A stretch of 64,000 bases of DNA from Haliovirga abyssi (GTDB lineage Bacteria > Fusobacteriota > Fusobacteriia > Fusobacteriales > Haliovirgaceae), in the NCBI RefSeq assembly GCF_030295325.1, contig NZ_AP027059.1, positions 1,980,637 to 2,044,636 on the forward strand, written 5' to 3'. Both the position numbers and the translations under genes were made by a program. Each line of letters starts with the position of its first letter. Within the stretch, counting starts at the first letter, position 1. The notes beneath the pieces were generated by a model. The model was given only the letters and a program-made list of their open reading frames with translations, was not told the origin of the DNA and made no database searches. Below, one piece after another: positions 27,777 to 64,000 of this stretch.

Positions 27777-27782
27777 TTAATT

Positions 27783-35644: not shown

Positions 35645-35680
35645 TATTCCTCCATGTTGTTTTGTGAGTAAAATCATAAA

Positions 35681-36077: not shown

Positions 36078-36120
36078 AACTGGAAATTTATTTGTTCATA
36101 AGCGTAGCTTATTTTTCATT

Positions 36121-36818: not shown

Positions 36819-37027
36819 ATTTCACACCTCTATTTTTATTTTTAACTTATAAAATCATATCATTTTTATATTAAAAAGTCAAAAGTAATATGAAAAGGAT
36901 AGTGTCAAGTTTTTGTAGGAAAAACAATTTCAATTAAAAATTACAAATTTTATTCATTTAATTATACACTGCTTATTCTTTTAATCACATTTTTATATTC
37001 TAGCTACATATTTTATAATTCTTTTTC

Positions 37028-38558: not shown

Positions 38559-38704
38559 GGAATGGCTTAAAAATAACCTTCCGATTTTGTTATAAAAGGC
38601 TCAAGGTTCTTTTATGAAAACCACATAAAAAACTACGCCCAACGTATGCAACGTTTCAACCATTTTTATAACAAAATATGAGAAAATTATTTTTTAAACG
38701 TTCC
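38559..38704 (+). mobile_element. MITE-like family B element, copy 2
   Basis: A 146-bp copy nearly identical to that at 58060-58204. It begins GGAATGGCTTAAAA and ends TTTTTTAAACGTTCC, directly abutting the stop codon of the S41 pseudogene. Internal arms TTTTGTTATAAAA / TTTTTATAACAAAA form a long stem. Confidence 0.8.
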
Positions 38705-40057: not shown

Positions 40058-40080
40058 ATTATACTCCTCCCTATTGTAAT

Positions 40081-40167: not shown

Positions 40168-40180
40168 AAATGACTATTTA

Positions 40181-40279
40181 GGAACGGCTTAAAAATAACC
40201 TTCCGATTTTGTTTTAAAATACGCAACGATTCAAGCGTTTTTATAACAAAATATAAAAAAATATTTTTTAAACGTTCTT
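40181..40279 (+). mobile_element. MITE-like family B element, short copy
   Basis: Begins GGAACGGCTTAAAAATAACC and ends TTTTTTAAACGTTC, with the central part shorter than in the 146-bp copies. It directly follows the IS remnant. The remaining bases to 40388 contain nothing recognisable. Confidence 0.7.
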
Positions 40280-40388
40280 TAATGCTAAATTTTATTTCTA
40301 TACAATAATTTTTAATGTAATTTTAAATACTTTTCCCACACCAACTTTCTCCTACAATAGCTATTTTTTATAGTTTTGTTTTTTTAGT

Positions 40389-42703: not shown

Positions 42704-42776
42704 TTATATTTCCTCCTTAAAATACTAATTTTTGTAAAAGATATTATTTCACTAAAATTTCATAAAAGTTTTAAAT

Positions 42777-43050
42777 TTACATTTTTATTTTTTCTAAAAA
42801 TAATTGTTCTATTTTATCAAATTCACATTTTAAGTTTTTTTCCATTCTAATATAGTAAGTGTTTTTTATCTTTTTTTCTATCCACCCAATATCTTTAATT
42901 AAAATTTTAATAAATTTATACCTTTTTTCTTCTACTTTTTCTGAATAAATTTTATTGCATTATTTATATTTTTTATAATTAAATTTTCCAATGACCATCT
43001 AACCATTCTAACTTCACTCTCCCAATAAAATCTAAAATTAATAAAATTGT
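42777..43050 (-). pseudogene. Possible coding remnant with a frameshift
   Basis: In the 350-base gap between esterase genes the minus strand encodes FRFYWESEVRMVRWSLEN and onward to a stop. A shift of frame then continues as EKVEEKRYKFIKILIKDIGW to a stop at 42777. Both halves have protein-like composition (Lys/Glu/Ile/Trp) rather than the simple AT sequence typical of spacers here. No family recognised; no start codon with a ribosome site. Confidence 0.35.
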
Positions 43051-43053
43051 TTT

Positions 43054-44490: not shown

Positions 44491-44501
44491 TAAACTCCCC
44501 C

Positions 44502-45893: not shown

Positions 45894-45917
45894 ATTTCCT
45901 CCTACTAAATTTTTAAA

Positions 45918-47782: not shown

Positions 47783-49696
47783 TTACTCTTTTTCTAACAA
47801 CACTTTTGCATTCTTAGGATAATTTAATTTTTCTAATATTTTATACAATTTGCTATATTCCTCTATTGTATAAATATGAGAATTATACCTCACTACAGTA
47901 TCCAATATGATTTTATTTCCACCATTACTATTACCTATTTTCAAATCTCTTTTTATCAACATATTTTTTTCTTTTATTTCCAATGATTTTGGTGCTATTC
48001 TTACTTTGTAATTTGCTGGATATTCTATGCTAATATTGTTTTTTCTCAATATATCACTAACTAATTCAAATGGATATTTCCTTACATTTTCAAATAGATC
48101 TAACATATCCAATCTATATGGCAAATCAAAATATATGAAATCCCCATCTATTGAAGCAAAATTTGTATATTTATATGTGTAACTTATTTTTACTGGACTA
48201 CCTAATTCTACATCCATTTGCTTACTTATTGGATAAGCATTTTGAGAAATCATTCCTAATTCTTTTTGATAATCCTGTTGTTTCATTATAGGAGTCATAT
48301 ATTTATATTTTTCTCTTTCTCCAATTGCATTTATTCCATAAAAATATATTGTCTTATTAATTAATGCATCTCCATTTAAATCAATTTTTATATTATAGCT
48401 TTTCTCTATTCTTGTAATATTTTTTTCAATTGATTTAACATTTACAAATTCAGGTTTTCCTGTATCTAATATTAATCCTATATTATTTTCAATTACACTC
48501 TCGCCTAATTTTGAAAATTCATTTGTAGCATCTACAAAATAATCTTTATTATCTATGGTAACTTTTGAAATAGCATAATTAAATCTATTCATATCTATCC
48601 CTTTTTTTACATCATCCCATACAAGTTTATCTGAGCCTAATATCACTATTTCCCCAGAAATACCTTCCTCTTTTAATAATAATAAAAATAAATTTTCTAT
48701 ATCCAACGAAGTTCCATATCCTCTTGTTAATATCTCTTTTGGAGAACTTGCTTCAAAATCTAGCAAATTATCAATATATTTTATCTCTATATGTTTAGCT
48801 ATAAAATCTTGTATAATCTCTTCTTTTTTCATATTTGTCATATCTTTGGTTATTAATTTATCCAATACTTTTTCTTTTATCTCTTTTAATATTTGTAAAT
48901 TTTCTTTACTTTTATTTATTTTTATAAATTTTCCTAATAATTCATCTCTGTATTCTGCCCAATTGTTATAATTTGTAAAAATAACAGTTGGCATAAATTT
49001 TAAGCTTTCTGGTATATTACTTTCATCTAAAATCTGTGGCATAAACTTTTCACTAAATTTTATTATTTTCCTATCTTTAGCTATATTATCCATATATTCC
49101 ATTTTAGTATTCCAGTTAAATTTTGTTATATTAAAATTCATATCTTTTGGTATATTTATAATTTCAACTTTATTATAAACTGCTTCTCTACTTGCAAAAT
49201 TTACAGTTCCTGATATTTTTTGTTTTTTATTATTTTTTATTGTATATTCTATATCTATAATATCGCCCTCATTTACCGCTGGAAAAGCTATTACCTCCAT
49301 TTTATGTGCCGCATATTTCATTAACCCTACATCTGAAGGTGCATCTATTATTCTAATATTTTTACTTTTATCTACTGCAATTTCTTTTATTCCACTCTTA
49401 CTAATTTTTACTGTCTTTGCATTAATAATATCTACTTTTTCAAATCTTTTATCAAATTTTATCTTATATTCCGAACTTGCTTTTTTCCCTTTATAATTTA
49501 ATATCCTTTTTATTATATGTTTTTTTATTATATAGCTATTATCCTTGTTAAAAATTATACTTTCTCTATCCAACAATGTTACTACAGAAGCGTTTGGATA
49601 TCTTTTCATATCTATCTTTGTGTTATATATACTATTTGTTTCTGAAAAAATCATACTAAACATCATAAAAAACCAAATTAAAATAATCTTCTTCAC
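47783..49696 (-). CDS. DUF3857 / transglutaminase-like protein, catalytic triad lost
   Basis: A 637-aa protein with a signal peptide (MKKIILIWFFMMFSMIF), an N-terminal DUF3857-like domain (about 25-240) and a transglutaminase-fold domain (about 280-400). It aligns throughout with its neighbour 49716-51647, but Cys328 of that protein is Gly328 here (RGYGTSLD) and His368 is Tyr374 (FNYAISK). Only the Asp is kept (FVDATNE). It is therefore predicted to be a non-catalytic partner or binding protein. The pair lies head-to-tail, 19 bases apart, and is probably located in the periplasm. Confidence 0.8.
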   Translation of the reverse strand: MKKIILIWFFMMFSMIFSETNSIYNTKIDMKRYPNASVVTLLDRESIIFNKDNSYIIKKHIIKRILNYKGKKASSEYKIKFDKRFEKVDIINAKTVKISKSGIKEIAVDKSKNIRIIDAPSDVGLMKYAAHKMEVIAFPAVNEGDIIDIEYTIKNNKKQKISGTVNFASREAVYNKVEIINIPKDMNFNITKFNWNTKMEYMDNIAKDRKIIKFSEKFMPQILDESNIPESLKFMPTVIFTNYNNWAEYRDELLGKFIKINKSKENLQILKEIKEKVLDKLITKDMTNMKKEEIIQDFIAKHIEIKYIDNLLDFEASSPKEILTRGYGTSLDIENLFLLLLKEEGISGEIVILGSDKLVWDDVKKGIDMNRFNYAISKVTIDNKDYFVDATNEFSKLGESVIENNIGLILDTGKPEFVNVKSIEKNITRIEKSYNIKIDLNGDALINKTIYFYGINAIGEREKYKYMTPIMKQQDYQKELGMISQNAYPISKQMDVELGSPVKISYTYKYTNFASIDGDFIYFDLPYRLDMLDLFENVRKYPFELVSDILRKNNISIEYPANYKVRIAPKSLEIKEKNMLIKRDLKIGNSNGGNKIILDTVVRYNSHIYTIEEYSKLYKILEKLNYPKNAKVLLEKE

Positions 49697-49715
49697 TTTT
49701 ACTCTCCTTTTTTCT

Positions 49716-51647
49716 TTATTTTTTTAAGAAATTCTTTATTATAATATATTTTTTATTATAGCTCTCTTCCTCTTTTAAATACTCTTTTAATTTCAAATAT
49801 TCTTTTGTAGAATATTCCAATTTATCTAATGTCATATATTTATAACTTATAATTTTGCCTTTATCTGTAATATATTTAGAATAAAAAGTATGCCCATTCT
49901 CATTTATATCCATTGTACTTGGAACGAATTTTATTACAAAATTTTTATTCTCGCTATTATAAATAATCTTTTCTGAAATTGAAGCTGTAAATCTATTTTT
50001 CAAAGGATATTTTCGCATTGGTAATTTGACATCTCCTAATGCCCAATTATATAATCCTAATATCCTTGAAAATTTAGGCAACTTTATCATACTATATTCA
50101 TTTCCACTTATAATATAATCAGAAATTTTATATTCAACTGATAATTTTAATGTAGAACTATCTCTTAATAAATTATTAGGTAACAACTCATATTTTTCTA
50201 ATTTTGCTGTTTTAGATAAAATATTTAAAACTCTTTTTATAAATTTATCTTTTTCATCTTTATTTAATCTTGCAAAATATCCTCTATAAGCTCCATCATT
50301 TATTCCTAAAAATTCTATATTGGTTTTACATTGAAATTCTCCATTAATATTTTTTATATTTGTTACTATTTTTAATTTATTTTTTACAGCTTCTATTACA
50401 GGTGTAGTTTTTAATAAATCTCCATATTTTTTTGCAATTAAGTATGATTTGTCCATTTCATAATCTGGAAATAGTTTCTTGGTAGTCTCATCAGTAGGGT
50501 CCATTAAAATATATTTCCCATTTAATTTCACTGTGGCAATCGCATGATTAAAATATGGAATTGGAACTTCTTTGTCTAATTTATCTCCTACTTTTACTAA
50601 AACCATATTTGCTTCAAATCCTTGACTTCTAAGCATTGCAACTATTAATGCTGCTTTATCTCTACATACTCCTGTCATCTCTTTCAAAGTTAAATCTGTA
50701 GAATTAGGTTCTAATCCTGGTCTATTCTTTTCATTGGTAATTCCCATATATCTTATTTTTCTTGATACAAAGAAAAATATATTTTTAATTTTTTCCATAT
50801 CTGTTTTAGAATTCAAAACTAAACTTTCAGCTTTTTTTCTTATTGATTCATCTATTATTATTTTGGGTTCTGATAAATTAAAATACCATTTTGAAATCTC
50901 TTCCCAACTACTATTAGTTGTAACTATCCATTTCATAGCAACTTGAGTTATAGATGGCATTGAAGGTTCTGGTATAATTTGAGGTATATTTTTTTCTTCT
51001 AATTCATAAATTATATTTTTATCATTACTTTTTTTGGTTAATTTATATTTATCTTTCAAACCATTTAAAACAACTGAATATTTTAAATCTTTTTCTTTTG
51101 GTGCTATGATTTTATATTTCGCTTTAATTATAGGATATTCATTTCGCAATAAATAAAAATCTGAAAAATTATCTTTTATCATAGTTTTAAAGTTATTATG
51201 CTCTACTTTATAATATAAATAATCTCCTACCTCTAAATTTGGTATTTTTAATATTAATAATTTCTGACTTTTGTCATATATATTTGACTGTGCAGATTCT
51301 GGTGAAATTTGTATTTTTGAATTTTTAGATATATTAATCTCTAATTTCTTTCCATCTTTTTTTATTAAATATGCTTCTTTCAAAAGTAATTTTTCATAAT
51401 TACTATCATAATTTAATACAACATTTTCATTTTCATTTTTTCCTTTTTCGTCTAAAATTTTAATTAACATATCTTCTGTTTTTAAACTTTTTCCATCACT
51501 TTGATATTTCACAATAGAATTTTCATCTACTAAAACATAATGTGCATTTGGATAATCTTTTTTTTCAACCTTTAAAAATTTGTTATTTTCAACAGAATAT
51601 GACACTATTGAAAATAGCATTAGCAGTACAACCATAATTTTCTTCAT
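49716..51647 (-). CDS. DUF3857 / transglutaminase-like protein, triad intact
   Basis: A 643-aa exported protein (signal MKKIMVVLLMLFSIVSYS). The DUF3857-like N-domain spans about 25-240. The transglutaminase core contains Cys328 (TGVCRDKAALI), His368 (PYFNHAIATV) and Asp383 (LMDPTDE), the complete Cys-His-Asp triad. Such proteins occur in diderms, often near outer-membrane or polysaccharide genes; the reaction (protease, amidase or crosslinking) is unknown. It is followed directly by its degenerate paralogue, implying a gene duplication with division of labour. Confidence 0.85.
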   Translation of the reverse strand: MKKIMVVLLMLFSIVSYSVENNKFLKVEKKDYPNAHYVLVDENSIVKYQSDGKSLKTEDMLIKILDEKGKNENENVVLNYDSNYEKLLLKEAYLIKKDGKKLEINISKNSKIQISPESAQSNIYDKSQKLLILKIPNLEVGDYLYYKVEHNNFKTMIKDNFSDFYLLRNEYPIIKAKYKIIAPKEKDLKYSVVLNGLKDKYKLTKKSNDKNIIYELEEKNIPQIIPEPSMPSITQVAMKWIVTTNSSWEEISKWYFNLSEPKIIIDESIRKKAESLVLNSKTDMEKIKNIFFFVSRKIRYMGITNEKNRPGLEPNSTDLTLKEMTGVCRDKAALIVAMLRSQGFEANMVLVKVGDKLDKEVPIPYFNHAIATVKLNGKYILMDPTDETTKKLFPDYEMDKSYLIAKKYGDLLKTTPVIEAVKNKLKIVTNIKNINGEFQCKTNIEFLGINDGAYRGYFARLNKDEKDKFIKRVLNILSKTAKLEKYELLPNNLLRDSSTLKLSVEYKISDYIISGNEYSMIKLPKFSRILGLYNWALGDVKLPMRKYPLKNRFTASISEKIIYNSENKNFVIKFVPSTMDINENGHTFYSKYITDKGKIISYKYMTLDKLEYSTKEYLKLKEYLKEEESYNKKYIIIKNFLKK

Positions 51648-52963: not shown

Positions 52964-52987
52964 AAAGGATAGTTAATGCTATCCTTT
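52964..52987 (-). terminator. Terminator of the RiPP export operon
   Basis: Nine-base arms AAAGGATAG and CTATCCTTT with a 6-base loop, followed on the minus strand by TTTTGTTTTTT. It overlaps the TolC-like stop codon and marks the 3' boundary of the RiPP locus. Confidence 0.85.
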
Positions 52988-54280
52988 AATCTCATCTCTC
53001 TTTACTTTATATCTAAATCCATTTAATTCATTTTTCGCCTTATCATAATTCAATTTAGCTTCATCTCTATTTTTTTGCTCTTTAAGAAAATCCAATAAAC
53101 TCATATATCCATTTTCATATATATTTTTATCTACTTCATATCTTTTTTCCATATTCTGCATTTTTTCTTTTGCTATTTCTAACTTTGATAATAAATTCTT
53201 ATATTCTATCTCTGCATTTTCTTTATCCTCTTTACTTTTTATTTCCAATTCTTTCTTTTCTATTTTTAATTTGTCTAATTCCTTCTTTGTTTTTCTAACA
53301 TCTGTTCCATATTCTATTATATTTCCTGTAAATACAATTCCTGCATTCCAAACTTTTCCTTCTATATCATAATTCATATCAAAATTTATGTTAGGTTCTG
53401 ATTTTCTTTTATAATATTTCAAATTTTCCTCATTTAATTTCTCATTTAAACTATTTACAACTATCTTATCCTCATTAATTTCTATTTTAAAATTATCTAT
53501 AGCTTTTATATCTTTAAATTCATAATCCGAATCTTCTATCCCAACTTTTTTTAATAACTCTCTCTTCTTATTCTTAATCTCTTTTTTTAAATATTCAATA
53601 CTATTTTTAATAGATTTTATCTCTATTCCCATATATTCAACATCTATTTTTACTGCTTCTCCATATTCTAATTTCTTTATCAAATTTTCATACTCTTCAT
53701 TCATCACTTTTAAACTATTCTCATTTATCAATATTTCAGAATCCAAATTTTTTATTCTTATATATAAATCAACTATATTTTTCAACTCTGTTTTTTTACT
53801 GATTTTCAGATTTAATTTTGTTAATTTGCTATTTAAATTTATACTATTATCTTTATATTTTTGTTCACTATAAATTATATCATTTAAACTTTTCGTTAAT
53901 CCTAATTTATAACTTACTCTCTTCACTTTTGAGGTTGTATTATCATAAGTAATTGCACTGTAAAACATATTATATCCTAAATTTACAGTTATCCCTCCTG
54001 GATATTTTGATATATCTTTTGTCATTTGTAAATTTAATGGCATTTTATCTTTATCTGTATAATAACTATAATTTGGTGTTATATTAAAACTCAATTTCCC
54101 CCATTTATCAATAAAATTACCATTTTCATCTATTTTTAATTTATCTAATTCCAATTTCTCTTTTTTTACATAGCTACTTTTATTATTAAAACTCTCTATT
54201 ATATCATCTAATCCTAGCTTTTTTGCTGCAAATATATTTACACTTATTAAAATCATTATTACTAATACTATTTTTTTCAT
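52979..54280 (-). CDS. TolC-like outer-membrane efflux protein
   Basis: A 433-aa protein with a signal peptide (MKKIVLVIMILISVNIFA) and the repeated helix-strand-helix plan of TolC: a first beta region (about 60-130), a long coiled coil, a second beta region around 290-320 (INFDMNYDIEGKVWNAGIVF), and the C-terminal coil ending with the typical YENGYMSLLDFLKEQKNRDEA motif. It should form the outer-membrane channel for the ABC/HlyD exporter. It overlaps the preceding coiled-coil gene by 4 bases and ends the operon at a terminator. Confidence 0.82.
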   Translation of the reverse strand: MKKIVLVIMILISVNIFAAKKLGLDDIIESFNNKSSYVKKEKLELDKLKIDENGNFIDKWGKLSFNITPNYSYYTDKDKMPLNLQMTKDISKYPGGITVNLGYNMFYSAITYDNTTSKVKRVSYKLGLTKSLNDIIYSEQKYKDNSINLNSKLTKLNLKISKKTELKNIVDLYIRIKNLDSEILINENSLKVMNEEYENLIKKLEYGEAVKIDVEYMGIEIKSIKNSIEYLKKEIKNKKRELLKKVGIEDSDYEFKDIKAIDNFKIEINEDKIVVNSLNEKLNEENLKYYKRKSEPNINFDMNYDIEGKVWNAGIVFTGNIIEYGTDVRKTKKELDKLKIEKKELEIKSKEDKENAEIEYKNLLSKLEIAKEKMQNMEKRYEVDKNIYENGYMSLLDFLKEQKNRDEAKLNYDKAKNELNGFRYKVKRDEIKG

Positions 54281-55155
54281 TCTGCTAACTCCAATTTCAG
54301 ATATTCTATTTTGCTCTCATAATCTAATTTTTCTATTACTTTATTCAAATACTCCATATCTTTATCAAATAGTTCTGTTTTACTTGCTAGTCCTACTTTT
54401 GATTTACTTACAAGCATCTCTTTTTCTAACTCTAATATATTTAATTTTGATTCTAATACTTTTAAATCACTTATATTATCTGCTAAATCTTTCTTTAATT
54501 TATCTTTTGTTTTGTCTATATTTTTTAAATCTTCCTCTCTTTGTAATCTTACCAATTTTAAATTTATCTCTCTATTATCTATCTCTTTTGCTCCTAATTT
54601 TTCTTGATTTGCTAAATTTAATTCTTTAGAATATACAGCTTCCAATATTTTATAACTTTTTTCTATCTCTTTTTTTATATTTTTGATTTTTTCCAATTTC
54701 AAATTGCTTATATCTTTTAATTTTTTTACATTATAATTTTTAGCTCTTATATTACTTTCTATCTGCTCTTTCAAACTAAAAATATTATATTTTATATTTA
54801 ATATATCCATTTTACTCACAACCTCTTGATTTTTTTCCATTATCTGCTTTTTCTTCTCATACTCTTTTAATTTACTTTTTAATATCTTTGATATTTTATC
54901 TAACTTTTCTAATTCGCTCTCTATTTGAAATTTCTCTTTTAACTTTTTATTCTCCTCTTTTATTATCTCTAAATTTTTACTTACCAAATCTCTTTTTAAT
55001 TTCAGATAATTTGTATCACTCCAACTTTTCTCTTTTAATATTTTTAATTTTTCTAAGCTGTTTTTTATCTTTTTATACTGCTCTTGCAATATATCTAATT
55101 GGCTACTGTATATATTTAAAGATAACATTATAAATATTAATAACTTTTTTAACAT
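54277..55155 (-). CDS. Exported coiled-coil protein resembling the TolC helical hairpins
   Basis: A protein of about 292 aa with a signal peptide (MLKKLLIFIMLSLNIYS) and almost continuous coiled coil. The last 60 residues (VSKSKVGLASKTELFDKDMEYL) match the conserved C-terminal repeat of TolC-family proteins, but no beta-barrel strands are visible. ATG 55155 has a proper site (AAAGGAG); a longer reading to 55203 would lack one and spoil the signal peptide. It sits between the HlyD and TolC genes. It may be a shortened TolC paralogue or a periplasmic spacer in the export channel. Confidence 0.65.
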   Translation of the reverse strand: MLKKLLIFIMLSLNIYSSQLDILQEQYKKIKNSLEKLKILKEKSWSDTNYLKLKRDLVSKNLEIIKEENKKLKEKFQIESELEKLDKISKILKSKLKEYEKKKQIMEKNQEVVSKMDILNIKYNIFSLKEQIESNIRAKNYNVKKLKDISNLKLEKIKNIKKEIEKSYKILEAVYSKELNLANQEKLGAKEIDNREINLKLVRLQREEDLKNIDKTKDKLKKDLADNISDLKVLESKLNILELEKEMLVSKSKVGLASKTELFDKDMEYLNKVIEKLDYESKIEYLKLELAE

Positions 55156-55203
55156 AACTGCTCCTTTTTTGGCGAGATTTTTAACTATTGATTTATTTGT
55201 CAT

Positions 55204-56262
55204 TTACTCAAATAATTTATCCCATAAATATCTTGCAAATCTCTTTTTTTCTCCAATAATTATCTTTGCTTTTCCTTTTAATCCGTTTCGCAAATATACA
55301 CCTTTTAATCTATTATTTTTTAATTTTGTAGTAAATCCTTTTATCTTTACTTCTACTTTATTATAAGTTATTCCTTTTTCTGCTTGTGGAAATAATTTTA
55401 TTACTTCTCCTTCCAATGTTGAATATTTCTCATAAGGTATTGCATCTATCATTAATATTACTTTTTGCCCTTTTTTGACTTTTTCAATTTGATTTTCCTT
55501 TAAAGTTACTAACATTTTCAAATTATTTAAATCCGCTAAAGTAAATAATAAATCTCCATTATTAACTATTGCTCCCTTTAAATTTTTTAATTTATTCGTA
55601 ATTATTGTCATCCTATCATAAGGTGAAGCTATATTACAGTTATTTAATTTATTTTTTAAATTTTCATTTTTATTTTTATAATATGTAATTTTTTTCTTGA
55701 TATTTAATCTTTCTATATATATTAATTCTTTTTTTAACTTTAAGTCATTTTTTTGAGAAAAATTTAAAAACTCAATATTTTTCTTTCCTAATAAATACTT
55801 GATTTTCTTTAATTCGTAGTTGGATATTTCTCCCATTTTAAATAAAATTTTATCATGTTCATATTCATTTTTTAAATTTTTATAATCTATTTCTAATAAT
55901 TTTAACTTATTTTCATTATTTTTATCTTCTAAATTAATCTCTTTTTCTTTAATATTTTCTTCTTCTAAATTTTTAATCAAATCTTCTATTAATCTTTCAT
56001 TTTCTATAATTTTCCCCTTAATATTTTCTGAATCTATTTCCATCACAATTTCTTTTTTGTTTACAACTTCTCCAAAACCTTTTTCTATTTTTTTTATTCT
56101 ACCATTACAAGGAGAATATATATTATATTTATCCGCAATTACTACACCTTTTCCTTCTACATACTCTGTTTTTTTTAATACAAAAAATAAAATTAATATT
56201 ACCAATACAAATATTATTGTAGTTATTACTAAAAATTTTATTACTGATAAAGGATTTTTCAT
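55204..56262 (-). CDS. HlyD-family membrane-fusion protein
   Basis: A 352-aa adaptor: one N-terminal membrane segment (about 8-30), a split lipoyl/barrel-sandwich domain (VEGKGVVIADKYNIYSPCNGRIKK ... NCNIASPYDRMTI), a long coiled-coil hairpin between (about 80-200), and a C-terminal beta-barrel (VTLKENQIEKVKKGQKVIL). This is the bacteriocin-exporter class. It links the ABC transporter upstream (34 bases away) with the TolC-like channel downstream. The whole set implies export of a peptide across both membranes. Confidence 0.88.
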   Translation of the reverse strand: MKNPLSVIKFLVITTIIFVLVILILFFVLKKTEYVEGKGVVIADKYNIYSPCNGRIKKIEKGFGEVVNKKEIVMEIDSENIKGKIIENERLIEDLIKNLEEENIKEKEINLEDKNNENKLKLLEIDYKNLKNEYEHDKILFKMGEISNYELKKIKYLLGKKNIEFLNFSQKNDLKLKKELIYIERLNIKKKITYYKNKNENLKNKLNNCNIASPYDRMTIITNKLKNLKGAIVNNGDLLFTLADLNNLKMLVTLKENQIEKVKKGQKVILMIDAIPYEKYSTLEGEVIKLFPQAEKGITYNKVEVKIKGFTTKLKNNRLKGVYLRNGLKGKAKIIIGEKKRFARYLWDKLFE

Positions 56263-56295
56263 TAACTCTCTTCCTTTCTTTAAATATTATGATTT

Positions 56296-58023
56296 TTAAT
56301 TCTTATCTTTTCTATTCACCAAATCATAATAATATCCCCGTTTGCTTATTAACTCTTCATGTTCTCCTTCTTCTATTACTCTTCCTTCTTTCAAAACAAT
56401 TATCCTATCTACATTTTTAACTGTTGATAAACGATGGGCAATCATTATAACTGTTTTTTCTTTAAGTTCTTTCTCTAAAAAATCTTGTATTTTTCTTTCT
56501 GTTATATTATCTAAAGCTGAAGTGGCTTCATCTAATATAACTAAATCAGGATTTTTTAAAATTATTCTTGCAATTGATAGACGTTGTCTTTGTCCTGCTG
56601 ATATATTACTCCCATTTAAATCAATCTTTTTCATCATCCCATCTTTCTCTTGATTCAAGAATTCCCCCATTTGACATTTATTACATATCTCTTCTATCAC
56701 TTCATTTTTTTCTTTTTTTCCTAGCAATAAGTTTTCTTTTAAACTATCACTAAAAAAAAAGTTGTCTTGATTTACTACTCCTATAAATTTCCTATAATTA
56801 TTAATATTAATTTCTTTTAAATTATTTCCATCAATAATTATATCCCCTTTTTCAGGCTCATATAATCCCATTAATAATTTTACTATAGAAGATTTTCCGC
56901 TTCCACTTTCTCCAACGATTGCTATTTTTTCCCCTTTTCCTATTTTTAAATTAAAATTATCAAACAATTTATTTCCTATTTCGTAAGAAAAAGATACATT
57001 TTCAAATTTTATATCTCCTTCTATACCCTTTATCTTTTTTCCTTTTATATTTTCTTCTTTTAAATTTAATATCTTTTCTATCCTTTCTACCGCGACCAAA
57101 AAAGAATGGAAATCAATATTAAAATTAATAAATTGAATTAAACTATTTTTTAAAATACTACCATAAGAACTTAAAGCAATATAACTTCCAAAAGATATTT
57201 CTCCAGTATAAACTAAATATCCGCCAAAACCGAACATCAATATAATCTCCAAAACATCAATAAAACTGCTCCCAATGTTGCTAAGCCATTTATATTTCAA
57301 ATAACTAAATATCGACACTATTAATTCTCTATTTTTTACCCAGTGTTTTCTTTCAATATATTTTTCTTTTACATTTAATTTTATATGTCCAAAATTAAAA
57401 AAAGATTCATTAATAAATGAAAATAAGTTTGAAACCGATTCTTGTGTTTTTTTATTAGTTCTAGTTAATCTTTTTCCAAAATATAAATTATTAAAAACAT
57501 ATCCAGGGATTAATATAAAAGAAATTAAAAAATATTTCCAACTTAATCCTATCATTATTATAGACACTACTAAAAAAGTAAAAAAAAACATTATTAATTC
57601 AAATAATTTAGTTGACATCACTTGCTCAACATTATAAATATCACTATCAAAAGTTACATATATATCCCCAAAATTCACTTCCTTTATATTTAAAGAATGT
57701 GCACTAAATATTTTTTTAAACATATTCTTTCTTAAAGTTGCGCTTATAAAATTCCCTATATAAGCTAATAAATAATCTTTAGATATCTGAAATATACTAC
57801 TCATAACAAAAATAGTTACATATAATAATATAAAAATATAAAGCGCTTCTATATTTTTTCCTATAAAAAATTCATCTATAATATATTTATTTATTAGTGG
57901 TTTTATTAAATTTAAAATTGTAATTACTGCCATAACAAAAACTACATATATCTGTAATTTATATATTTTTTTTAAATAAGTATACATTTTTTTTATTGCT
58001 TTTATAACTTCCATATAATTCAT
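56296..58023 (-). CDS. ABC exporter (permease-ATPase), no peptidase domain
   Basis: A 575-aa half-transporter with six membrane segments (about 20-310) fused to an ATPase with all motifs: Walker A VGESGSGKSSIVKLL, Q-loop GVVNQDN, signature NISAGQRQRLS, Walker B PDLVILDEATSAL and the switch His in MIAHRLST. Unlike most double-glycine peptide exporters it lacks an N-terminal C39 protease, so the leader must be removed by another enzyme; S8 and S41 proteases are encoded in the same locus. ATG 58023 has GGAG at 8 bases. It follows the S41 gene after a family B MITE (58060-58204). Confidence 0.9.
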   Translation of the reverse strand: MNYMEVIKAIKKMYTYLKKIYKLQIYVVFVMAVITILNLIKPLINKYIIDEFFIGKNIEALYIFILLYVTIFVMSSIFQISKDYLLAYIGNFISATLRKNMFKKIFSAHSLNIKEVNFGDIYVTFDSDIYNVEQVMSTKLFELIMFFFTFLVVSIIMIGLSWKYFLISFILIPGYVFNNLYFGKRLTRTNKKTQESVSNLFSFINESFFNFGHIKLNVKEKYIERKHWVKNRELIVSIFSYLKYKWLSNIGSSFIDVLEIILMFGFGGYLVYTGEISFGSYIALSSYGSILKNSLIQFINFNIDFHSFLVAVERIEKILNLKEENIKGKKIKGIEGDIKFENVSFSYEIGNKLFDNFNLKIGKGEKIAIVGESGSGKSSIVKLLMGLYEPEKGDIIIDGNNLKEININNYRKFIGVVNQDNFFFSDSLKENLLLGKKEKNEVIEEICNKCQMGEFLNQEKDGMMKKIDLNGSNISAGQRQRLSIARIILKNPDLVILDEATSALDNITERKIQDFLEKELKEKTVIMIAHRLSTVKNVDRIIVLKEGRVIEEGEHEELISKRGYYYDLVNRKDKN

Positions 58024-58059
58024 TTTAACAACTCCAATTATAACATTTCTATAACTTAT

Positions 58060-58204
58060 GAATGGCTTAAAAATAATATTCCCATTTTGTTATAAAAGGC
58101 TCAAGGTTCTTTTATGAAAACCACATAAAAAACTACGCCCAACGTATGCAACGTTTCAACCATTTTTATAACAAAATATGAGAAAATTATTTTTTAAACG
58201 TTAC
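58060..58204 (+). mobile_element. MITE-like family B element, copy 3
   Basis: Almost identical to 38559-38704 and likewise abutting the stop codon of an S41 gene, so it was duplicated together with that gene. It separates the S41 gene from the ABC transporter inside the RiPP operon. Confidence 0.8.
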
Positions 58205-59557
58205 TTAATCTATTAAATTTTTTAATATATATGTTAATTGAGTATCTACACCATTTATTATATCATCAATTTTAGGTCTCACTATAATATCTGGAATAAC
58301 TCCTCTTTTTATCTTCTTTTCACTTGGATCACTTAAATATTTATTTGAAATATATATTTTAGTTTTAGTATACTTCGTTCTAAAAAAAATTGCATTTCCG
58401 TAATCACTATATCTAGTTCCACTTTCTTCTCCTATAATTGTTCCTAATTTATAAGCTTGGACCATTCCTAAAAATGAACTCGCACTTGAAAAACTTCCTC
58501 CATTTGCAAGAACAAATACATTCCCACTATATCTGTTCATACCATATACTTCTTTTACATTACTTTTTAAAATTTTTCCATTTTGTTTATCAGTTATTTC
58601 ATTCCAGTTGTAACTATTCTTATAAATACCATATTTATTTTGATCTTTTTTTAGTGCTTTACAAACCTTTACTTGAATATAAGAAAATACTCTTATTTTT
58701 TTCTTTGTAATATATCTGCCTAACAATTCACCGCAATTACTATTTCCACCGCCATTATTTCTAATATCTATTATTAAATTATTTATCCTTTTCTTTTTTA
58801 ATTCAGAAAATGATTTCTCTAAAAAAGACAAATACTCTTGATCATAATCAAATTCTTTTATTCTCATAATTGCTACTTTTGACGAAATTTGTTTAAAACT
58901 ATATTTCTTCTCTTCTTTTATAAATCTTTTTTTATACTCTTTTAGACTAATTCCATTTATAATTTTTTTCTTTATAAGATTATCTTTTTTATCTCTATAA
59001 ACGATTTCATACTGTTTTGTAGGATTATATAATAAATAATAATGCATAAAAAACTCATCATTTAATATACATTTTTTCCAACCAATTGTATCATAAGATA
59101 TATGCTCAGATATATTTTTTATAATTCTATCAACAGGATTATTATTTATTTTTAAAATTAGAGAACCTTTTGTTATTTTATTATTATAATCTTTTATCAA
59201 ATATACTTTATTTCCAATTATATAAAATTTAAAAGGTAATATTTTAATGTCTCTCTTTAAAAAATTTTCTGTTTCTATTAAAACTCCAGTATGCCCATCT
59301 TTAATTTTAGCCATCAAAGAAGCTAAAAATGCAACTGCTTCTCTCTCAGAAATAGTATCATTAAATTTTTTGAATTTTTTTTCTATATAGTTATTCAATT
59401 CTTCTTTTTTTACACGAGCATAAAAATTTACATGAATATCTTCTCCTTTTTTCACTACATCTTTTACTTCTTTTAAAAACATCTCCTTACTTATCGCTGC
59501 ATTAATCAAATTACTAAAATAAAACATTGCTAAAAATATAAAAACTATTTTTTTCAT
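58205..59557 (-). CDS. Exported S41-family (C-terminal-processing-like) peptidase
   Basis: A 450-aa serine protease with signal peptide (MKKIVFIFLAMFYFSN, cleavage about 20). It has the IKDGHT motif (86-90), a PDZ-like stretch (GSLILKINNNPVDRII, about 131-146), the S41 motif DIRNNGGGNS (264-273) and the nucleophile segment ANGGSFSSAS (Ser358). Several S41 proteases are encoded in Cys-rich peptide loci, where they trim exported precursors. It lies between the radical SAM maturase (about 170 bases) and the exporter, so periplasmic leader trimming is the likely role. A nearly identical copy at 38705-40057 carries a nonsense codon. Confidence 0.88.
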   Translation of the reverse strand: MKKIVFIFLAMFYFSNLINAAISKEMFLKEVKDVVKKGEDIHVNFYARVKKEELNNYIEKKFKKFNDTISEREAVAFLASLMAKIKDGHTGVLIETENFLKRDIKILPFKFYIIGNKVYLIKDYNNKITKGSLILKINNNPVDRIIKNISEHISYDTIGWKKCILNDEFFMHYYLLYNPTKQYEIVYRDKKDNLIKKKIINGISLKEYKKRFIKEEKKYSFKQISSKVAIMRIKEFDYDQEYLSFLEKSFSELKKKRINNLIIDIRNNGGGNSNCGELLGRYITKKKIRVFSYIQVKVCKALKKDQNKYGIYKNSYNWNEITDKQNGKILKSNVKEVYGMNRYSGNVFVLANGGSFSSASSFLGMVQAYKLGTIIGEESGTRYSDYGNAIFFRTKYTKTKIYISNKYLSDPSEKKIKRGVIPDIIVRPKIDDIINGVDTQLTYILKNLID

Positions 59558-59726
59558 ATTATACTCCTCCTAATTTTTTTCTTCTTTATAATTAAATATT
59601 TCAAACTAAAATCTAAATATTATTTTTATAGCCATTTCTCATTATATAAAAGATTTTTGAAATACTAGAAATCAAAGTATAAATTCTTTTATCTATTAAT
59701 TTACATTTATATATTTTATTTACTAA

Positions 59727-61130
59727 CTATAAATATTCAAAATACAGTTTTGAATATTTTGTTACAGCATCTTTTACACTTTCGCCATCAATTTCACAAG
59801 ATATTTTTTTATCTAATATTTTCTTTTTGCATCCTCCATGACAAATTGGTAATTCTTTACAATCTAAACATTCCAATTGTTCTTTATTTTTAACAACAAG
59901 TTGTCGCCATTCCTTTTCCCTTTTTTTATTTGTTATATTCATTTCTCCATCTTCTGTAATATATCCTATATTATTTTCTTCTTGCCCTACTGAACTCTCA
60001 CAAGGATAAACAAGTCCTTCTGAAGAAATAACATAAGAGTTTTCTTTATATGCATAACATCCAACATTTTTAGGCATTGGTAATAAATTAGAAATTATAT
60101 ATTTTATTTCTTCTTTTTTAAAATTATTTTTTTCTATTCTGTATCTCATTCTTTTATAGTATATTTCGTTATTTATTTTATGCTTTATCTTCATTGCCTC
60201 TTTAGTTCCATAAATTTCTTCTTTAATTCTTTCATTTGAACTTCTTTTTGTTTCTACTTCATAAACAGGAGCAAAATAGATAAAAAATCTCATATCATCC
60301 ATAAATTCTTTTTCAAATTTCTCTATTAAAACTTTAGAACTTTTTAAATTTTTTTTCAAAAAGTTTACTCTAATATCTATATTAAATTCTTTTTCCACTT
60401 TTTTACTTATTAATAATAAGTTTTCATAAATTTTATCAAATGTACCTTCTCCATTTCTCAAATTACGAAGCTTGTCATGAGATTCTTTATCTCCATCAAA
60501 TGTTATTTGAAATTTTTTTATCCCTTTATTTACTAATTTTTCAAACTTATCATATGTTAAAAGATATCCGTTAGTAGTCATATTTGATGTTAATTTTAAA
60601 TGTGAATACTTTTCTTCTAATTTTTTTATTTTCTCCATAAAATTTAAAATATTTTTATATTCTAGCATTGGTTCTCCACCAAACCAATGTATATTCACAT
60701 AAAAATTTTTATCTCTATTTGAAGCTTTTAATTTATTTTCTATAAAATTATATATACTTCTATATACTTCTTCCTTCATAGTTACATTTTTATATTTATA
60801 AATAAAGCAATAAGGGCATCTAAAATTACACTCTTCTGTTGGAAATAAAACTAAATTTAAACTATTGCCATAATCAAATTTTCTTGAAACTTCTAATATT
60901 TCATCCCTATTATTTTCAATAAGATATCCATATTTAATTAAAACATCTTTTATTTTTTCTTCTTCTAATTTAATATTATTGGGTTTTTTTAATAATTTTA
61001 TAATTATATCTTCTTGGTTTTCTTTAGGTATAAATATTGCTCTTGTTTTACAATTATACACCGCTAATCTCTCATTGTCTAATTTTATTTTATAATTATA
61101 TCTACTTTCTTTATATTGTAATTTTTCCAT
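59727..61130 (-). CDS. Radical SAM/SPASM peptide maturase
   Basis: A 467-aa enzyme. The N-terminal 90 residues form a RiPP-recognition-like region. The radical SAM core has Cys101-x3-Cys105-x2-Cys108 (CNFRCPYCF) and the SAM-binding GGEP (151-154). The SPASM domain shows Cys358, Gly372-x4-Cys377, then Cys421-x2-Cys424-x5-Cys430-x3-Cys434 and Cys445, the full set for two auxiliary [4Fe-4S] clusters. This architecture is that of sactipeptide/ranthipeptide thioether synthases and of the Clostridium Cys-rich peptide maturase CcpM. The adjacent Cys-rich precursors make Cys-to-carbon crosslinking the most likely reaction. AAGGAG precedes ATG 61130. Confidence 0.9.
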   Translation of the reverse strand: MEKLQYKESRYNYKIKLDNERLAVYNCKTRAIFIPKENQEDIIIKLLKKPNNIKLEEEKIKDVLIKYGYLIENNRDEILEVSRKFDYGNSLNLVLFPTEECNFRCPYCFIYKYKNVTMKEEVYRSIYNFIENKLKASNRDKNFYVNIHWFGGEPMLEYKNILNFMEKIKKLEEKYSHLKLTSNMTTNGYLLTYDKFEKLVNKGIKKFQITFDGDKESHDKLRNLRNGEGTFDKIYENLLLISKKVEKEFNIDIRVNFLKKNLKSSKVLIEKFEKEFMDDMRFFIYFAPVYEVETKRSSNERIKEEIYGTKEAMKIKHKINNEIYYKRMRYRIEKNNFKKEEIKYIISNLLPMPKNVGCYAYKENSYVISSEGLVYPCESSVGQEENNIGYITEDGEMNITNKKREKEWRQLVVKNKEQLECLDCKELPICHGGCKKKILDKKISCEIDGESVKDAVTKYSKLYFEYL

Positions 61131-61459
61131 TCTTCTCTCCTTATCAATTTAATAATATCTATTTTTTGCTCATAACTATATCCATTTAGATTCAGTAAAA
61201 ATATCATAAAATATTAATAGAAATATCATTATAAATTTTCTTATTTATTTTATTACTTTTTTCATGTCACTTAAAAACTTTACTACTATGATTATTTATA
61301 TGCTCCTTATATAAATTTAACAATTAATAATAAGGTCAGGGTATATTTGTTTGTTGTTTATTGTTTGCTGAAGCTATAAATAACCTTTAAATAATTTTAT
61401 AAAACTGTCTTTTTAAGTTTAAGAAATATAATATTTATTAAATTATTTTATTTATAATT
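61131..61459. other. Non-coding spacer between rSAM and precursor 1
   Basis: An AT-rich spacer. From 61319 it is homologous to the spacer 61857-61996 beyond precursor 2 (shared AACAATTAATAATAAGGTCA and CTTTTTAAGTTTAAG). No promoter or hairpin terminator was recognised, so rSAM is probably read through from the precursor. Confidence 0.5.
61334..61345 (+). repeat. Flanking inverted repeat, precursor 1 cassette (left)
   Basis: GGTCAGGGTATA; its exact inverse lies at 61658-61669, so the two enclose precursor 1 and its ribosome site. Confidence 0.6.
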
Positions 61460-61639
61460 TTACCAATGTATATGTATAGTACAATGAGTACATGTAGATG
61501 CATGAGAGCAATCATGACTATTACATATATGATGGCACCCGCCACTACTACTACCGCCACCATCTTCGTATCCATATACATCTACATATCCATTTACTTC
61601 TAATTCTTCTAATTCTAATTCTTTTATTTTATCTTTCAT
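61460..61639 (-). CDS. RiPP precursor peptide 1 (Cys/His-rich core)
   Basis: A 59-residue peptide with GGAGGG before ATG 61639. The leader runs from MKDKIKELELEELEVNGY to VDVYGYEDGGG and is nearly identical to that of precursor 2. The core begins about residue 30: a Ser/Gly spacer, then CHHICNSHDCSHASTCTHC and TIHIHW. It contains five Cys (35, 39, 44, 50, 53) and seven His, ending in aromatic Trp. This matches a substrate for the SPASM enzyme encoded 330 bases downstream. The GG in EDGG is a candidate leader cleavage site. The high His content could give metal binding. Existence is supported by leader conservation between two copies with divergent cores. Confidence 0.85.
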   Translation of the reverse strand: MKDKIKELELEELEVNGYVDVYGYEDGGGSSSGGCHHICNSHDCSHASTCTHCTIHIHW

Positions 61640-61657
61640 TAATTCCCTCCTATTTTT

Positions 61658-61669
61658 TATACCCTGACC
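61658..61669 (-). repeat. Flanking inverted repeat, precursor 1 cassette (right)
   Basis: TATACCCTGACC, the inverse of 61334-61345, immediately upstream of the precursor ribosome site. Confidence 0.6.
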
Positions 61670-61689
61670 AAAATTTAATTCTAATCAAA

Positions 61690-61846
61690 TTATTTTATTA
61701 AATTTAACCTCTTTTTATTAATAAAATTTAATATTTTTATGCTTAAAACTTTTTCATCTTTTAAATACTTTTCTAGAATTTTCATAATTATTGTCGCATG
61801 GCCATGTTCATCTTCTGTCTTTTTATTGTCAATTTGTGTACTAAAA
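61690..61846 (-). pseudogene. Remnant of a second S8 protease gene
   Basis: Encodes KTEDEHGHATIIMKILEKY, the His-motif region of the S8 protease at 62185, fused in frame to its C-terminal codons (FINKKRLNLIK, then TAA). Relative to the intact gene, 438 bases are missing between two copies of TTAATATTT, and the first ~45 codons are also lost or degraded. No start codon or catalytic Asp and Ser remain. Confidence 0.85.
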
Positions 61847-61871
61847 ATATAAATCTAACAATTAATAATAA

Positions 61872-61883
61872 GGTCAAGATATA
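61872..61883 (+). repeat. Flanking inverted repeat, precursor 2 cassette (left)
   Basis: GGTCAAGATATA, two changes from GGTCAGGGTATA, facing its inverse at 62153-62164. Confidence 0.5.
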
Positions 61884-61996
61884 CTTATTTGTTATTTGTT
61901 TATTTGAACCATAAAAAAATATTTAAATAATTTTATAAGACTACCTTTTTAAGTTTAAGGAATATCAATATTCATTAAACTATTTTATTTGTAATT

Positions 61997-62134
61997 TTAC
62001 TCATGTATAAAACAAGGCTCATATGGATAATGACAACTGCACACAAAACTGCCACTACCACCATCTTCATATCCATATACATCTACATATCCATTTACTT
62101 CTAATTCTTCTAATTCTTTTATTTTATCTTTCAT
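61997..62134 (-). CDS. RiPP precursor peptide 2 (three-Cys core)
   Basis: A 45-residue peptide with GGAGGG before ATG 62134. The leader MKDKIKELEELEVNGYVDVY continues GYEDGG and differs from precursor 1 only by loss of one Leu-Glu pair and one Gly. The core is SGSFVCSCHYPYEPCFIHE with Cys32, Cys34 and Cys41 and aromatic residues. It follows the S8 protease gene by 50 bases. Strict leader conservation with an unrelated core is the hallmark of RiPP precursors sharing one maturase. Confidence 0.85.
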   Translation of the reverse strand: MKDKIKELEELEVNGYVDVYGYEDGGSGSFVCSCHYPYEPCFIHE

Positions 62135-62152
62135 TAATTCCCTCCTATTTTT

Positions 62153-62164
62153 TATACCCTGACC
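62153..62164 (-). repeat. Flanking inverted repeat, precursor 2 cassette (right)
   Basis: TATACCCTGACC, identical to 61658-61669, between the S8 stop and the precursor 2 ribosome site. Confidence 0.6.
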
Positions 62165-62184
62165 AAAATTTAATTCTAATCAAA

Positions 62185-62868
62185 TCATTTTATTAAATTC
62201 AACCTATTTTTATTAATAAAATTTAATATTTCTTTTAATGTTAGTTTTTTATTTTCATTTATCAATTTTAAAATAATTCCTGTTATATGAGGAGTTGAAA
62301 AACTTGATGAATGCATATTATATTCATTTCCATCTATCCACCTCAATCTTTGTGTCCCACCTAAAATAATATCATTATTATTAAAATCAAATTCAAGTTT
62401 TTCTTCAAATAAATTCCCTTGTTTTATTTTAATTCCTATTACTTCTTTAAAACAAGCAGGATAAGCTACTTCACCTTCATTATGATGAGAAGCTATAATT
62501 ATTATTTTTTTTTCTCTTGCTTTGAGTATTTTTTTATAAATCTCATTTTTATACTCTTTGCTAATTGTCCCCAAGCTTAAATTAATAATATCAACTTTCT
62601 CATCAATAGCAATCTCTAATGCCTTTAGTAATAATTTAGAGTGAGTTGCTAAATTTTTATTTAATATTTTTATGTTTAAAACTTTTTCATCTTTTAAATA
62701 CTTTTCTAGAATTTTCATAATTATTGTCGCATGACCATGTTCATCCTCTGTCTTTTTATCATCAACATGAACTCCATATTGTGTATCAAAAAAAATTCTT
62801 ATATTTTTATAGATGTTCAATTTTGTTTTTTTGTATAATCCACTGTCTATTAGTGCTATTTTTTTCAT
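62185..62868 (-). CDS. Cytosolic subtilisin-like S8 peptidase
   Basis: A compact 227-aa protease with no signal peptide or prodomain. The triad is Asp8 (IALIDSGL), His44 (DEHGHATI, where HGHA replaces the usual HGTH) and Ser189 (SSSFSTPHITG). The oxyanion Asn130 lies in ASHHNEG. The start is ATG 62868; the GTG 9 bases upstream overlaps AAGGGTG. S8 proteases without signals in RiPP loci remove leaders inside the cell, so it may act after the SPASM enzyme and before export. It is followed 50 bases later by precursor 2. A deleted copy at 61690 shows the gene was duplicated with the precursor. Confidence 0.87.
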   Translation of the reverse strand: MKKIALIDSGLYKKTKLNIYKNIRIFFDTQYGVHVDDKKTEDEHGHATIIMKILEKYLKDEKVLNIKILNKNLATHSKLLLKALEIAIDEKVDIINLSLGTISKEYKNEIYKKILKAREKKIIIIASHHNEGEVAYPACFKEVIGIKIKQGNLFEEKLEFDFNNNDIILGGTQRLRWIDGNEYNMHSSSFSTPHITGIILKLINENKKLTLKEILNFINKNRLNLIK

Positions 62869-62948
62869 CTCAATCACCCTTTAAAATTTAATAAACAAAT
62901 TGTATATTTATTTTTTATTTATTACATGTATTAACGCCTTTTTCATAA

Positions 62949-64000
62949 TTAAATAAATAATTTATTTAAAATAATATCACCTAATATTTTTATGTCCTCA
63001 CTATTATTAATATCTATAACTGGCAACATAAATTTATTAAATAACTCTTTCTTTTTTTCTTCCATTTCCAATAATGTAACTTTTTCATAAATAGTCTCTT
63101 GCCATTGGTCTTTAGATACTGCTTTTATATCTGGCAAAACTAAAGCAATTACTTTCTTTTTTCCTAATGCTTCTAAGGTATTAATTGAATTTTTTATATG
63201 CTCAATAGGATCTATATGATTTACTACTAATATATATATATCCGGATTTGCAACAAATAAACATACTATTGAAGGTAAGGTCAAAGAGTTAGAATTTACA
63301 TTAAGCTTAAACGGAGTAATTCCTGATTGTCCCCCTACAATTAAACAATCATATCCTTTTTTATCTGTCTTTTTTAAAAGATATCTATATAATCCCAACT
63401 CAGAATTTATTCCTTTAGGAAGATTTGTCCACATCTCTTCACATCCCAAAAGATAAGAAGAGGGTTCAGTTCCAATATGACCTATTTTTAATCCTTTTTC
63501 CATTAATACTTTTTTTATAAATAGTTGAGTAGTTAGTTTTCCCTGATGAGGGCTTGTTCCAAAAATTCCTATTACAGGAGTTTTTATCTTATATTCCCAT
63601 TCTTTTTCTTCAATCACTTCATTATATCCAGTAATATCAGCTTCAGGATAAACTGCAAAAATATTATTTTCTTCTAAATATTCCTCTCCACTTTTACTTA
63701 TATATGGTTTTATATCTGAATCAATTACATATATATTTTTTTTATTTTTCAAAGAAATATCCATAACTTTAGAAAATTTTTCTTTTGTTTTTAATTGCTC
63801 ATGTTTATATTTAAATTTTGTATCTATTCCATTTGAATCCGTAAATATCACTGTATCTGCTCCACAAATAGCTTTTTCTACATTATCTGTAACAATTAAT
63901 CCTTCTCCTAAATTTAGTATTTTTTTAGCATCTTGCCCTATTATTTTATCATCAAAATCTATAACTCCTGTAATTTCATACCATAAATTTAATTCTTCTG
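62949..64000 (-). CDS. DUF1611-like P-loop protein (5' end outside window)
   Basis: Open to the right-hand edge; at least 350 residues are visible and the ATG lies beyond 64000. The N-terminal part (GVIDFDDKIIGQDAKKIL, IVTDNVEKAICGADTVIF) looks like the Rossmann-type half of DUF1611/DgcN proteins. The C-terminal half starts with a P-loop-like GIFGTSPHQGKLTTQLFI and continues KIGHIGTEPSSYLLGCEEMW, IVGGQSGITP and VVNHIDPIEHIKNSI. DgcN-type proteins are ATP-utilising enzymes acting on small amino-acid derivatives. In this locus it precedes S8 by 80 bases and is probably co-transcribed; its role in peptide maturation is unknown. It may be related to uncharacterised 'peptide maturation' proteins next to CcpM, which I cannot verify. 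Confidence 0.7.
   Translation of the reverse strand, partial: EELNLWYEITGVIDFDDKIIGQDAKKILNLGEGLIVTDNVEKAICGADTVIFTDSNGIDTKFKYKHEQLKTKEKFSKVMDISLKNKKNIYVIDSDIKPYISKSGEEYLEENNIFAVYPEADITGYNEVIEEKEWEYKIKTPVIGIFGTSPHQGKLTTQLFIKKVLMEKGLKIGHIGTEPSSYLLGCEEMWTNLPKGINSELGLYRYLLKKTDKKGYDCLIVGGQSGITPFKLNVNSNSLTLPSIVCLFVANPDIYILVVNHIDPIEHIKNSINTLEALGKKKVIALVLPDIKAVSKDQWQETIYEKVTLLEMEEKKKELFNKFMLPVIDINNSEDIKILGDIILNKLFI

Follow-up and report, generated by a model that had tools for sequence, protein, structure and literature searches.

A probable radical SAM, S8 protease and TIGR04066-type RiPP locus in the outer-membrane bacterium Haliovirga abyssi

What is produced by two small genes of Haliovirga abyssi that lie between a gene for a subtilisin-like (S8) protease and one for a radical S-adenosylmethionine (SAM) enzyme with a SPASM domain? 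The genome comprises 2.73 Mb in two contigs, and no second member of its family was among the genomes searched. The window analyzed here is the whole stretch of 64,000 nucleotides (nt); coordinates of the locus are window positions, and all of its genes lie on the minus strand. We conclude that the locus very probably is a gene cluster that makes and exports small cysteine-rich modified peptides. With high confidence we assign it to the loci for ribosomally synthesized and posttranslationally modified peptides (RiPPs), and it is likely a RiPP locus of a radical SAM/S8 protease/TIGR04066 type adapted to an outer-membrane bacterium. For the chemistry, we lean towards thioether crosslinks, which the SPASM enzyme would install. 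In the order of transcription, the locus contains the following features.

62949..64000, minus strand: 3′ part of the TIGR04066-like gene (DUF1611, P-loop; Pfam DUF1611, 4.8e-7), which runs beyond the window end
62185..62877, minus strand: cytosolic S8 (subtilisin-like) protease, QhpE-like (Pfam S8, 2.2e-14)
61997..62134, minus strand: precursor peptide 2 (45 amino acids [aa]), leader MKDKIKELEELEVNGYVDVYGYEDGG, core SGSFVCSCHYPYEPCFIHE, strong Shine-Dalgarno sequence AGGAGGG
about 61690..61832, minus strand: shortened copy of the S8 gene, left over from a duplication and lying between the precursors, recognized by DNA comparison
61460..61639, minus strand: precursor peptide 1 (59 aa), leader MKDKIKELELEELEVNGYVDVYGYEDGG, core GSSSGGCHHICNSHDCSHASTCTHCTIHIHW
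59727..61130, minus strand: radical SAM/SPASM maturase with an N-terminal region resembling a RiPP recognition element (RRE) (Pfam Radical_SAM and SPASM)
58205..59557, minus strand: S41 protease with a signal-like N-terminal sequence (Pfam S41, 9.8e-21)
56296..58023, minus strand: ABC exporter (permease-ATPase) without a C39 peptidase domain
55204..56262, minus strand: HlyD-type adaptor (Pfam HlyD_3, 8.3e-13)
54277..55203, minus strand: TolC-like/coiled-coil protein without a Pfam hit; a gene of similar size occupies the same slot of the sister locus described below
52979..54280, minus strand: TolC-type outer membrane efflux protein (Pfam OEP, 4.2e-10)

Precursor peptides and their enzymes

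The first-pass annotation had placed two small open reading frames (ORFs) together with S8, SPASM, S41, ABC, HlyD and TolC-type genes on the minus strand, and all of them were found at the positions that it gave. Its ABC-HlyD-TolC exporter likewise stood, except that the TolC-like genes number two (both of the outer membrane efflux type). The DUF1611 gene belongs to the locus as claimed but is cut by the window end, and the whole gene encodes 728 aa with two tandem TIGR04066-like domains.

The leaders of the two small ORFs agreed far beyond chance in a DNA comparison, as had been suggested by their near identity. Up to the GG, the leader DNA of the two copies differs by one in-frame 6-base deletion and by silent changes; in the claimed frame, none of the substitutions before the GG alters a residue, but in the overlapping frame they do. 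Identity extends to 94 of 97 positions in the part covering the S8 end and the 5′ untranslated region (UTR), and the 3′ UTRs are 84% identical. The cores, in contrast, are barely alignable, with 38 identities in 95 columns and gaps in 46 columns. They had been described as unrelated, which holds insofar as they scarcely align, but in both, the C-terminus is Cys-x-Ile-His followed by one to three residues. Judged by sequence, such a concentration of change in the core is as expected for a peptide whose leader is recognized by an enzyme; alternatively, the leader identity may stem from gene conversion in the 5′ part. Cysteines make up 5 of the 29 residues of core 1 (P = 8e-7) and 3 of the 17 residues of core 2 (P = 1.4e-4), both calculated at the window Cys rate of 0.6%. 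Seven residues of core 1 are His (enrichment P about 2e-8), and core 2 contains two. Searches of NCBIfam and Pfam yielded no family match for either precursor beyond one that was subthreshold, and no match to a CLI_3235-type precursor. A match to precursor 1 in genome G015 (E 0.006) turned out to be an unrelated Cys-containing ORF, and a DNA match at C1:2231776 lay inside a glutamyl-tRNA synthetase-like gene and was taken as chance.

The DNA comparison also revealed the origin of the pair. Segments 61309-61736 and 61847-62231 are copies of each other, and 61726-61832 duplicates positions 62659-62765, which lie within the S8 gene (95% DNA identity, with the 3′ end also in common). Because this S8-derived copy sits between the two precursors, the duplicated unit comprised S8 plus precursor. 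The two precursors arose by a tandem duplication in which the S8 gene was copied as well; an internal deletion later shortened the additional S8 copy. The cores would have diverged after this event while the leader stayed fixed.

A full set of cluster ligands had been claimed for the SPASM enzyme, and all ten cluster cysteines were located: CX3CX2C at C101/105/108 and seven more at C358/377/421/424/430/434/445. The best Foldseek match of its predicted structure (pLDDT 80, residues 412-448 poorly modelled) was CteB (5wgg; E 1.9e-16, 479 columns), and the alignment spanned the full length including the N-terminal region. There, residues 1-85 of the model form strands followed by helices and are covered by the CteB alignment; the resemblance to an RRE is based on this predicted model and not on an RRE-model score. 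The leader-recognition element of CteB is located in its N-terminal part. The best NCBIfam model was TIGR04463 (192.6 bits, cut-off 525); PapB gave 130.4 bits (cut-off 340), CcpM TIGR04068 95.8 bits (cut-off 500) and SCIFF 87.1 bits (cut-off 425), and the Clo7bot, CefB and geopeptide models scored below TIGR04463 with their cut-offs missed as well. The proposal of a RiPP locus with a SPASM maturase and Cys-containing precursors is well supported, but membership in the CcpM, TIGR04463, PapB or SCIFF families is not, since these cut-offs were missed.

In a tree of 17 rows, the window maturase paired only with the enzyme of genome G097, which is from the same class (39% identity, support 99/97), and stood apart from the TIGR04463 and CtpM representatives. 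A profile of the two enzymes, run over 389 genomes, gave at least 860 bits for the pair and at most 152 for all others, with no third close member. Plasmid relatives of the maturase were at most 34% identical, the TIGR04066-like gene was found on no plasmid searched, and a genome_contigs scan returned a single distant Bacteroidales match. The G097 locus (L020:8524-12685) contains about nine Cys-rich precursor-like ORFs around one SPASM gene, most of which start with MLKVYG or MLRVYG. Because the window leaders contain VDVYG and the G097 peptides have these starts, the VYG strand may be a docking element common to both, a suggestion at the level of a motif, as the alignment is mostly not significant.

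The acidic leader, through its GYVDVYG part, would dock on the SPASM enzyme at its RRE-like N-terminus. The enzyme would then install crosslinks from the core Cys residues, most likely of the thioether type known from CteB, PapB and QhpD. The 728-aa protein carries one P-loop in each domain (GTKSCIGK in the N-terminal and GTSPHQGK in the C-terminal domain) and may assist or add a second nucleotide-dependent step. TIGR04066 was its only and best model (71.9 bits for the window part, 105.9 for the whole protein), with the cut-off of 200 missed; the predicted fold resembles DUF1611 (2g0t/2obn) and the N-acetyltransferase DgcN (7xrj), and BioD-like P-loop proteins appear lower in the list. In the ABC exporter, only ABC_membrane and ABC_tran and no C39 peptidase domain exceeded the Pfam cut-offs, so a separate leader protease is needed. 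By analogy, the S8 protein is the probable cytosolic leader peptidase: it has the Asp/His/Asn/Ser catalytic motifs and no signal peptide, and its best model is QhpE (105.4 bits, cut-off 165 missed). QhpE cleaves off a leader of 28 residues while its thioether-crosslinked substrate is still in the cytoplasm; an ABC transporter then exports the substrate (PMC7876137). The S8 protease would similarly cleave near the GG, the ABC-HlyD-TolC system would export the core, and the S41 protease may trim or clear the peptide in the periplasm.

Inverted repeats around the precursors

Each precursor gene is bracketed by an inverted repeat of 12 to 13 bp. The window arms are as follows.

62153..62164, minus strand: 5′ arm GGTCAGGGTATA of precursor 2, inverted repeat
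61872..61883, minus strand: 3′ arm TATATCTTGACC of precursor 2, full pairing with two G-U pairs
61658..61669, minus strand: 5′ arm GGTCAGGGTATA of precursor 1, inverted repeat
61334..61345, minus strand: 3′ arm TATACCCTGACC of precursor 1, 115 nt after the stop

Thus, GGTCAGGGTATA precedes each precursor ATG by 18 nt, and TATACCCTGACC or TATATCTTGACC follows about 115 nt past the stop. A second locus of the genome, the sister locus, has the arms GGTCCAGATAGAT 27 nt before and ATCTATCTGGACC 55 nt after its precursor (L034 about 10092-10104 and 10403-10415). The sequence of the repeat differs between the loci, yet complementarity is kept. The 5′ UTRs of the two loci are homologous (AATTAAATTTTGGTC is common to both, and their alignment beats all 2000 shuffles); therefore, the arms are the same element, changed on both sides and still complementary. 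Across 2.7 Mb, there are three occurrences of the pattern AATTTTGGTCNNGNTA, each of them before a precursor. A perfect run of at least 12 with at least five G/C was obtained in 44 of 60,000 random placements, and the stretches examined contained 53 ORFs preceded by a strong ribosome site, of which only precursor 1 and the sister precursor had such a run. Whole-mRNA folds were not significantly stable (z -1.8 and -1.1), and duplex energy alone does not separate the precursors from other genes; hence, the case for a helix is built on covariation and rarity and not on energy. Rfam gave no family match. In other genomes, the precursors of related systems are without the element, save for one 12-base AT-rich run that is perhaps due to chance. 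We take the UTR element as real on these sequence grounds, with the pattern having been noted post hoc at two independent loci.

Perfect inverted repeats of 12 and 13 bp around two precursors could also be the ends of a mobile DNA cassette instead of RNA-pairing arms. This is quite unlikely, and it was discarded as the main explanation because the motif is found only at precursors: the 5′ motif is present just three times in the genome and always before a precursor. Moreover, the duplicated segment reaches past the repeats on both sides, and the two changes at precursor 2 preserve pairing only as RNA, through G-U. As an mRNA helix between 5′ and 3′ UTR, the element would probably set the precursor apart from the rest of the operon. 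Pairing of the 5′ and 3′ UTR of one bacterial mRNA has a parallel in Staphylococcus aureus, in which it governs the icaR mRNA (PMC3868564). In that case, translation of a regulator is under control of the pairing; the genes described here encode peptide precursors within an operon, and their 5′ arm is found 18 to 27 nt ahead of the ATG, on the upstream side of the ribosome site. The helix could give the precursor its own mRNA dose within the operon and could also serve as a signature for precursors that have no family model.

A sister locus without radical SAM

The sister locus was found by genome searches with the 728-aa protein, S8 and HlyD. It lies at C1:22000-41000 (L034), with the core genes at L034:5340-15505 (C1 about 27300-37500), and comprises an S8 gene (39% identity), four tandem TIGR04066-like genes, a precursor-like ORF, ABC (47%) and HlyD (55%) genes and two outer-membrane-efflux-type genes, the second of which is 48% identical to its window counterpart. 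The second and fourth TIGR04066-like genes keep the P-loop, and the other two are without it. The precursor-like ORF (L034:10133-10348) has a good ribosome site and encodes a 71-aa peptide, MKLKKVTEEMFLEEEFDLEGYNYGVDGDDGIDGDGETDSGSTSTGIDGDGETDSGIISIGIDGDDGIDGDQ, which is rich in Asp and Gly, contains GIDGDGETDSG-like repeat units and has no Cys. Within 19 kb, this locus has neither a radical SAM gene nor an S41 gene, and a genome-wide search for the maturase returned the window enzyme alone. No third locus of this kind was found in the genome by maturase, S8, HlyD or TIGR04066-like searches. S8, TIGR04066-like protein and exporter are therefore a common module, and only the window locus adds radical SAM and Cys to it. 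The curated description of TIGR04066 goes no further than "peptide maturation system protein", and the protein stands beside a radical SAM maturase in the described clusters (PMC4573289, PMC10731318). One genome that has a locus with radical SAM plus Cys and another locus without either separates TIGR04066 from radical SAM, and the roles of TIGR04066 and of the S8 protease become directly testable. Apparent maltodextrin/pullulanase-type genes surround the sister locus.

Alternative explanations, known systems and neighboring genes

RiPP loci combine a short precursor, with a conserved leader and variable core, and adjacent modifying, protease and export genes, and this is the arrangement found here. 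A RiPP locus is further favored by the leader that was kept while the core diverged, the silent leader changes, the Cys enrichment, the ten cysteines and CteB fold match of the maturase, the QhpE-like S8 protease and TIGR04066-like neighbor, the same neighbors in G028 and G345 (see below), the sister-locus module and the helix arms around both kinds of precursor. Several results weigh against it. As a check, the first-pass annotation had asked whether related SPASM enzymes elsewhere have leader homologs beside them, and no homologous leader was found in about 150 genomes searched; on the SPASM side of this check, the peptides of the nearest relative (G097) share a short VYG motif with the window leaders but only that. 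The maturase reaches no curated maturase family cut-off in NCBIfam. Similarity between the leaders of the two loci is weak at the protein level (shuffle P 0.06 to 0.12) and suggestive only, and because the sister locus lacks radical SAM, the module is independent of Cys chemistry and crosslinks. Finally, core 1 with its 5 Cys and many His could possibly be a metal-binding peptide.

This last point leads to an explanation that we regard as unlikely, namely, a secreted metal-binding product (metallophore or metal buffer) in which the radical SAM step adds ligand-shaping changes instead of antibiotic rings. It would fit the Cys- and His-rich core 1 and the GIDGDGETDSG-like Asp-rich repeats of the sister peptide, with the Cys/His core chelating a soft metal and the Asp core a hard one, and it would fit the tripartite export of both peptides. 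However, there are only 3 Cys and 2 His in core 2, neither locus was seen to be flanked by a metal uptake gene, and the fold of the radical SAM enzyme places it with the thioether maturases. A similarly tentative and improbable alternative makes the TIGR04066-like proteins the central peptide-modifying enzymes, with nucleotide-dependent acyl or amide chemistry and radical SAM as an add-on at the window locus. The four copies at the sister locus, two with intact P-loop and no radical SAM beside them, are in line with this, as are the DUF1611 fold including DgcN, the BioD-like proteins further down the list and the acyl-carrier-like protein that related systems add; however, the other two sister copies have lost the P-loop, and an immunity role has been proposed for TIGR04066 (PMC10731318). 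Equally doubtful is an extended version, in which the sister locus would be a radical-SAM-free RiPP locus whose four tandem TIGR04066-like proteins (two intact, two lacking the P-loop) would modify a peptide rich in Asp, Ser and Thr, and the precursors would be marked by a covarying UTR helix that controls precursor mRNA and was not found at related loci. It is highly improbable that the two small ORFs encode small regulatory or toxin-like proteins or are in decay. The scarcity of family matches (one subthreshold) and the decay and duplication in nearby genes would be compatible with this, but the leader is strictly conserved and its changes are silent, the ribosome sites are strong, the peptides are enriched in Cys, and the ORFs lie between the S8 and SPASM genes, all of which speaks for RiPP precursors.

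Among known systems, the annotated resemblance to the CcpM/CLI_3235 layout proved real. The cluster of Roseburia intestinalis L1-82 combines TIGR04068, TIGR04066 and TIGR04069 with a subtilase, as in the window, and an ABC transporter (PMC4573289), and these systems share the SPASM enzyme, the TIGR04066-like P-loop protein, the ABC exporter and a small Cys-containing precursor nearby with the window locus. For SacP23 of Paenibacillus polymyxa, from a cluster of the CLI_3235 family, the peptide was expressed and active (PMC10731318, which also proposes the immunity role of TIGR04066). In contrast to CLI_3235/CcpM systems, the window maturase is not CcpM, the leader is unrelated, the TIGR04066-like domain is doubled and subthreshold, S41, HlyD and TolC are added, and a sister locus without radical SAM exists; no ORF for an acyl-carrier-related TIGR04069 protein was seen between the DUF1611 and TolC genes, and the gene upstream is a transposase. 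Two other genomes have similar neighbors. A decaying CLI_3235-like locus in G028 (L022:4685-9820) contains a SPASM gene broken by a stop, an ACP-like gene, a short peptide, a broken S8 gene and one ORF that fuses an S8 end with TIGR04066-like and ABC parts. In G345, an S8-TIGR04066 fusion protein (L035:8505-10418) is encoded near a SPASM gene, with a Cys-containing precursor-like ORF upstream (14625-14801).

Maturation of quinohemoprotein amine dehydrogenase (with the radical SAM enzyme QhpD, the subtilisin-like protease QhpE and the exporter QhpF; PMC7876137) shares a thioether-type radical SAM enzyme, a leader of about 28 residues, a cytosolic S8 protease and ABC export. It differs in that the Qhp substrate is an enzyme subunit and the window products are short peptides; the window S8 is below the QhpE cut-off, and no Qhp structural genes were seen. 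The ranthipeptide-type maturases of the TIGR04463, Clo7bot (CtpM) and PapB families provide the best-scoring models and have Cys-rich partners, but all of their cut-offs were missed, the tree pairs the window enzyme with G097 only, and a KP-type leader motif is absent. The window locus can be likened to CLI_3235-type and Qhp systems and is a member of neither by curated tests. New in combination are the diderm exporter, S41, the doubled TIGR04066-like protein and the locus's own leader type; the radical-SAM-free sister locus and the UTR helix are new as well.

Promoter matches were no more frequent than in shuffled sequence, and no terminator was found. Upstream of the DUF1611 gene lies directly a gene for a 479-aa transposase (L019:2942-4381), and a similar one is present at 29416-30855. 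The S41 gene has a copy at 38560-40070 that is 96% identical in DNA and broken by an in-frame stop. An interspersed repeat of about 170 bp occurs just downstream of the S41 gene (58051-58226) and at 35681-35852 and 40178-40293. By eye, four paralogous genes for secreted or lipoprotein alpha/beta-hydrolase-like proteins stand in a row at 40389-47588, followed by two transglutaminase-like genes at 47783-51647.

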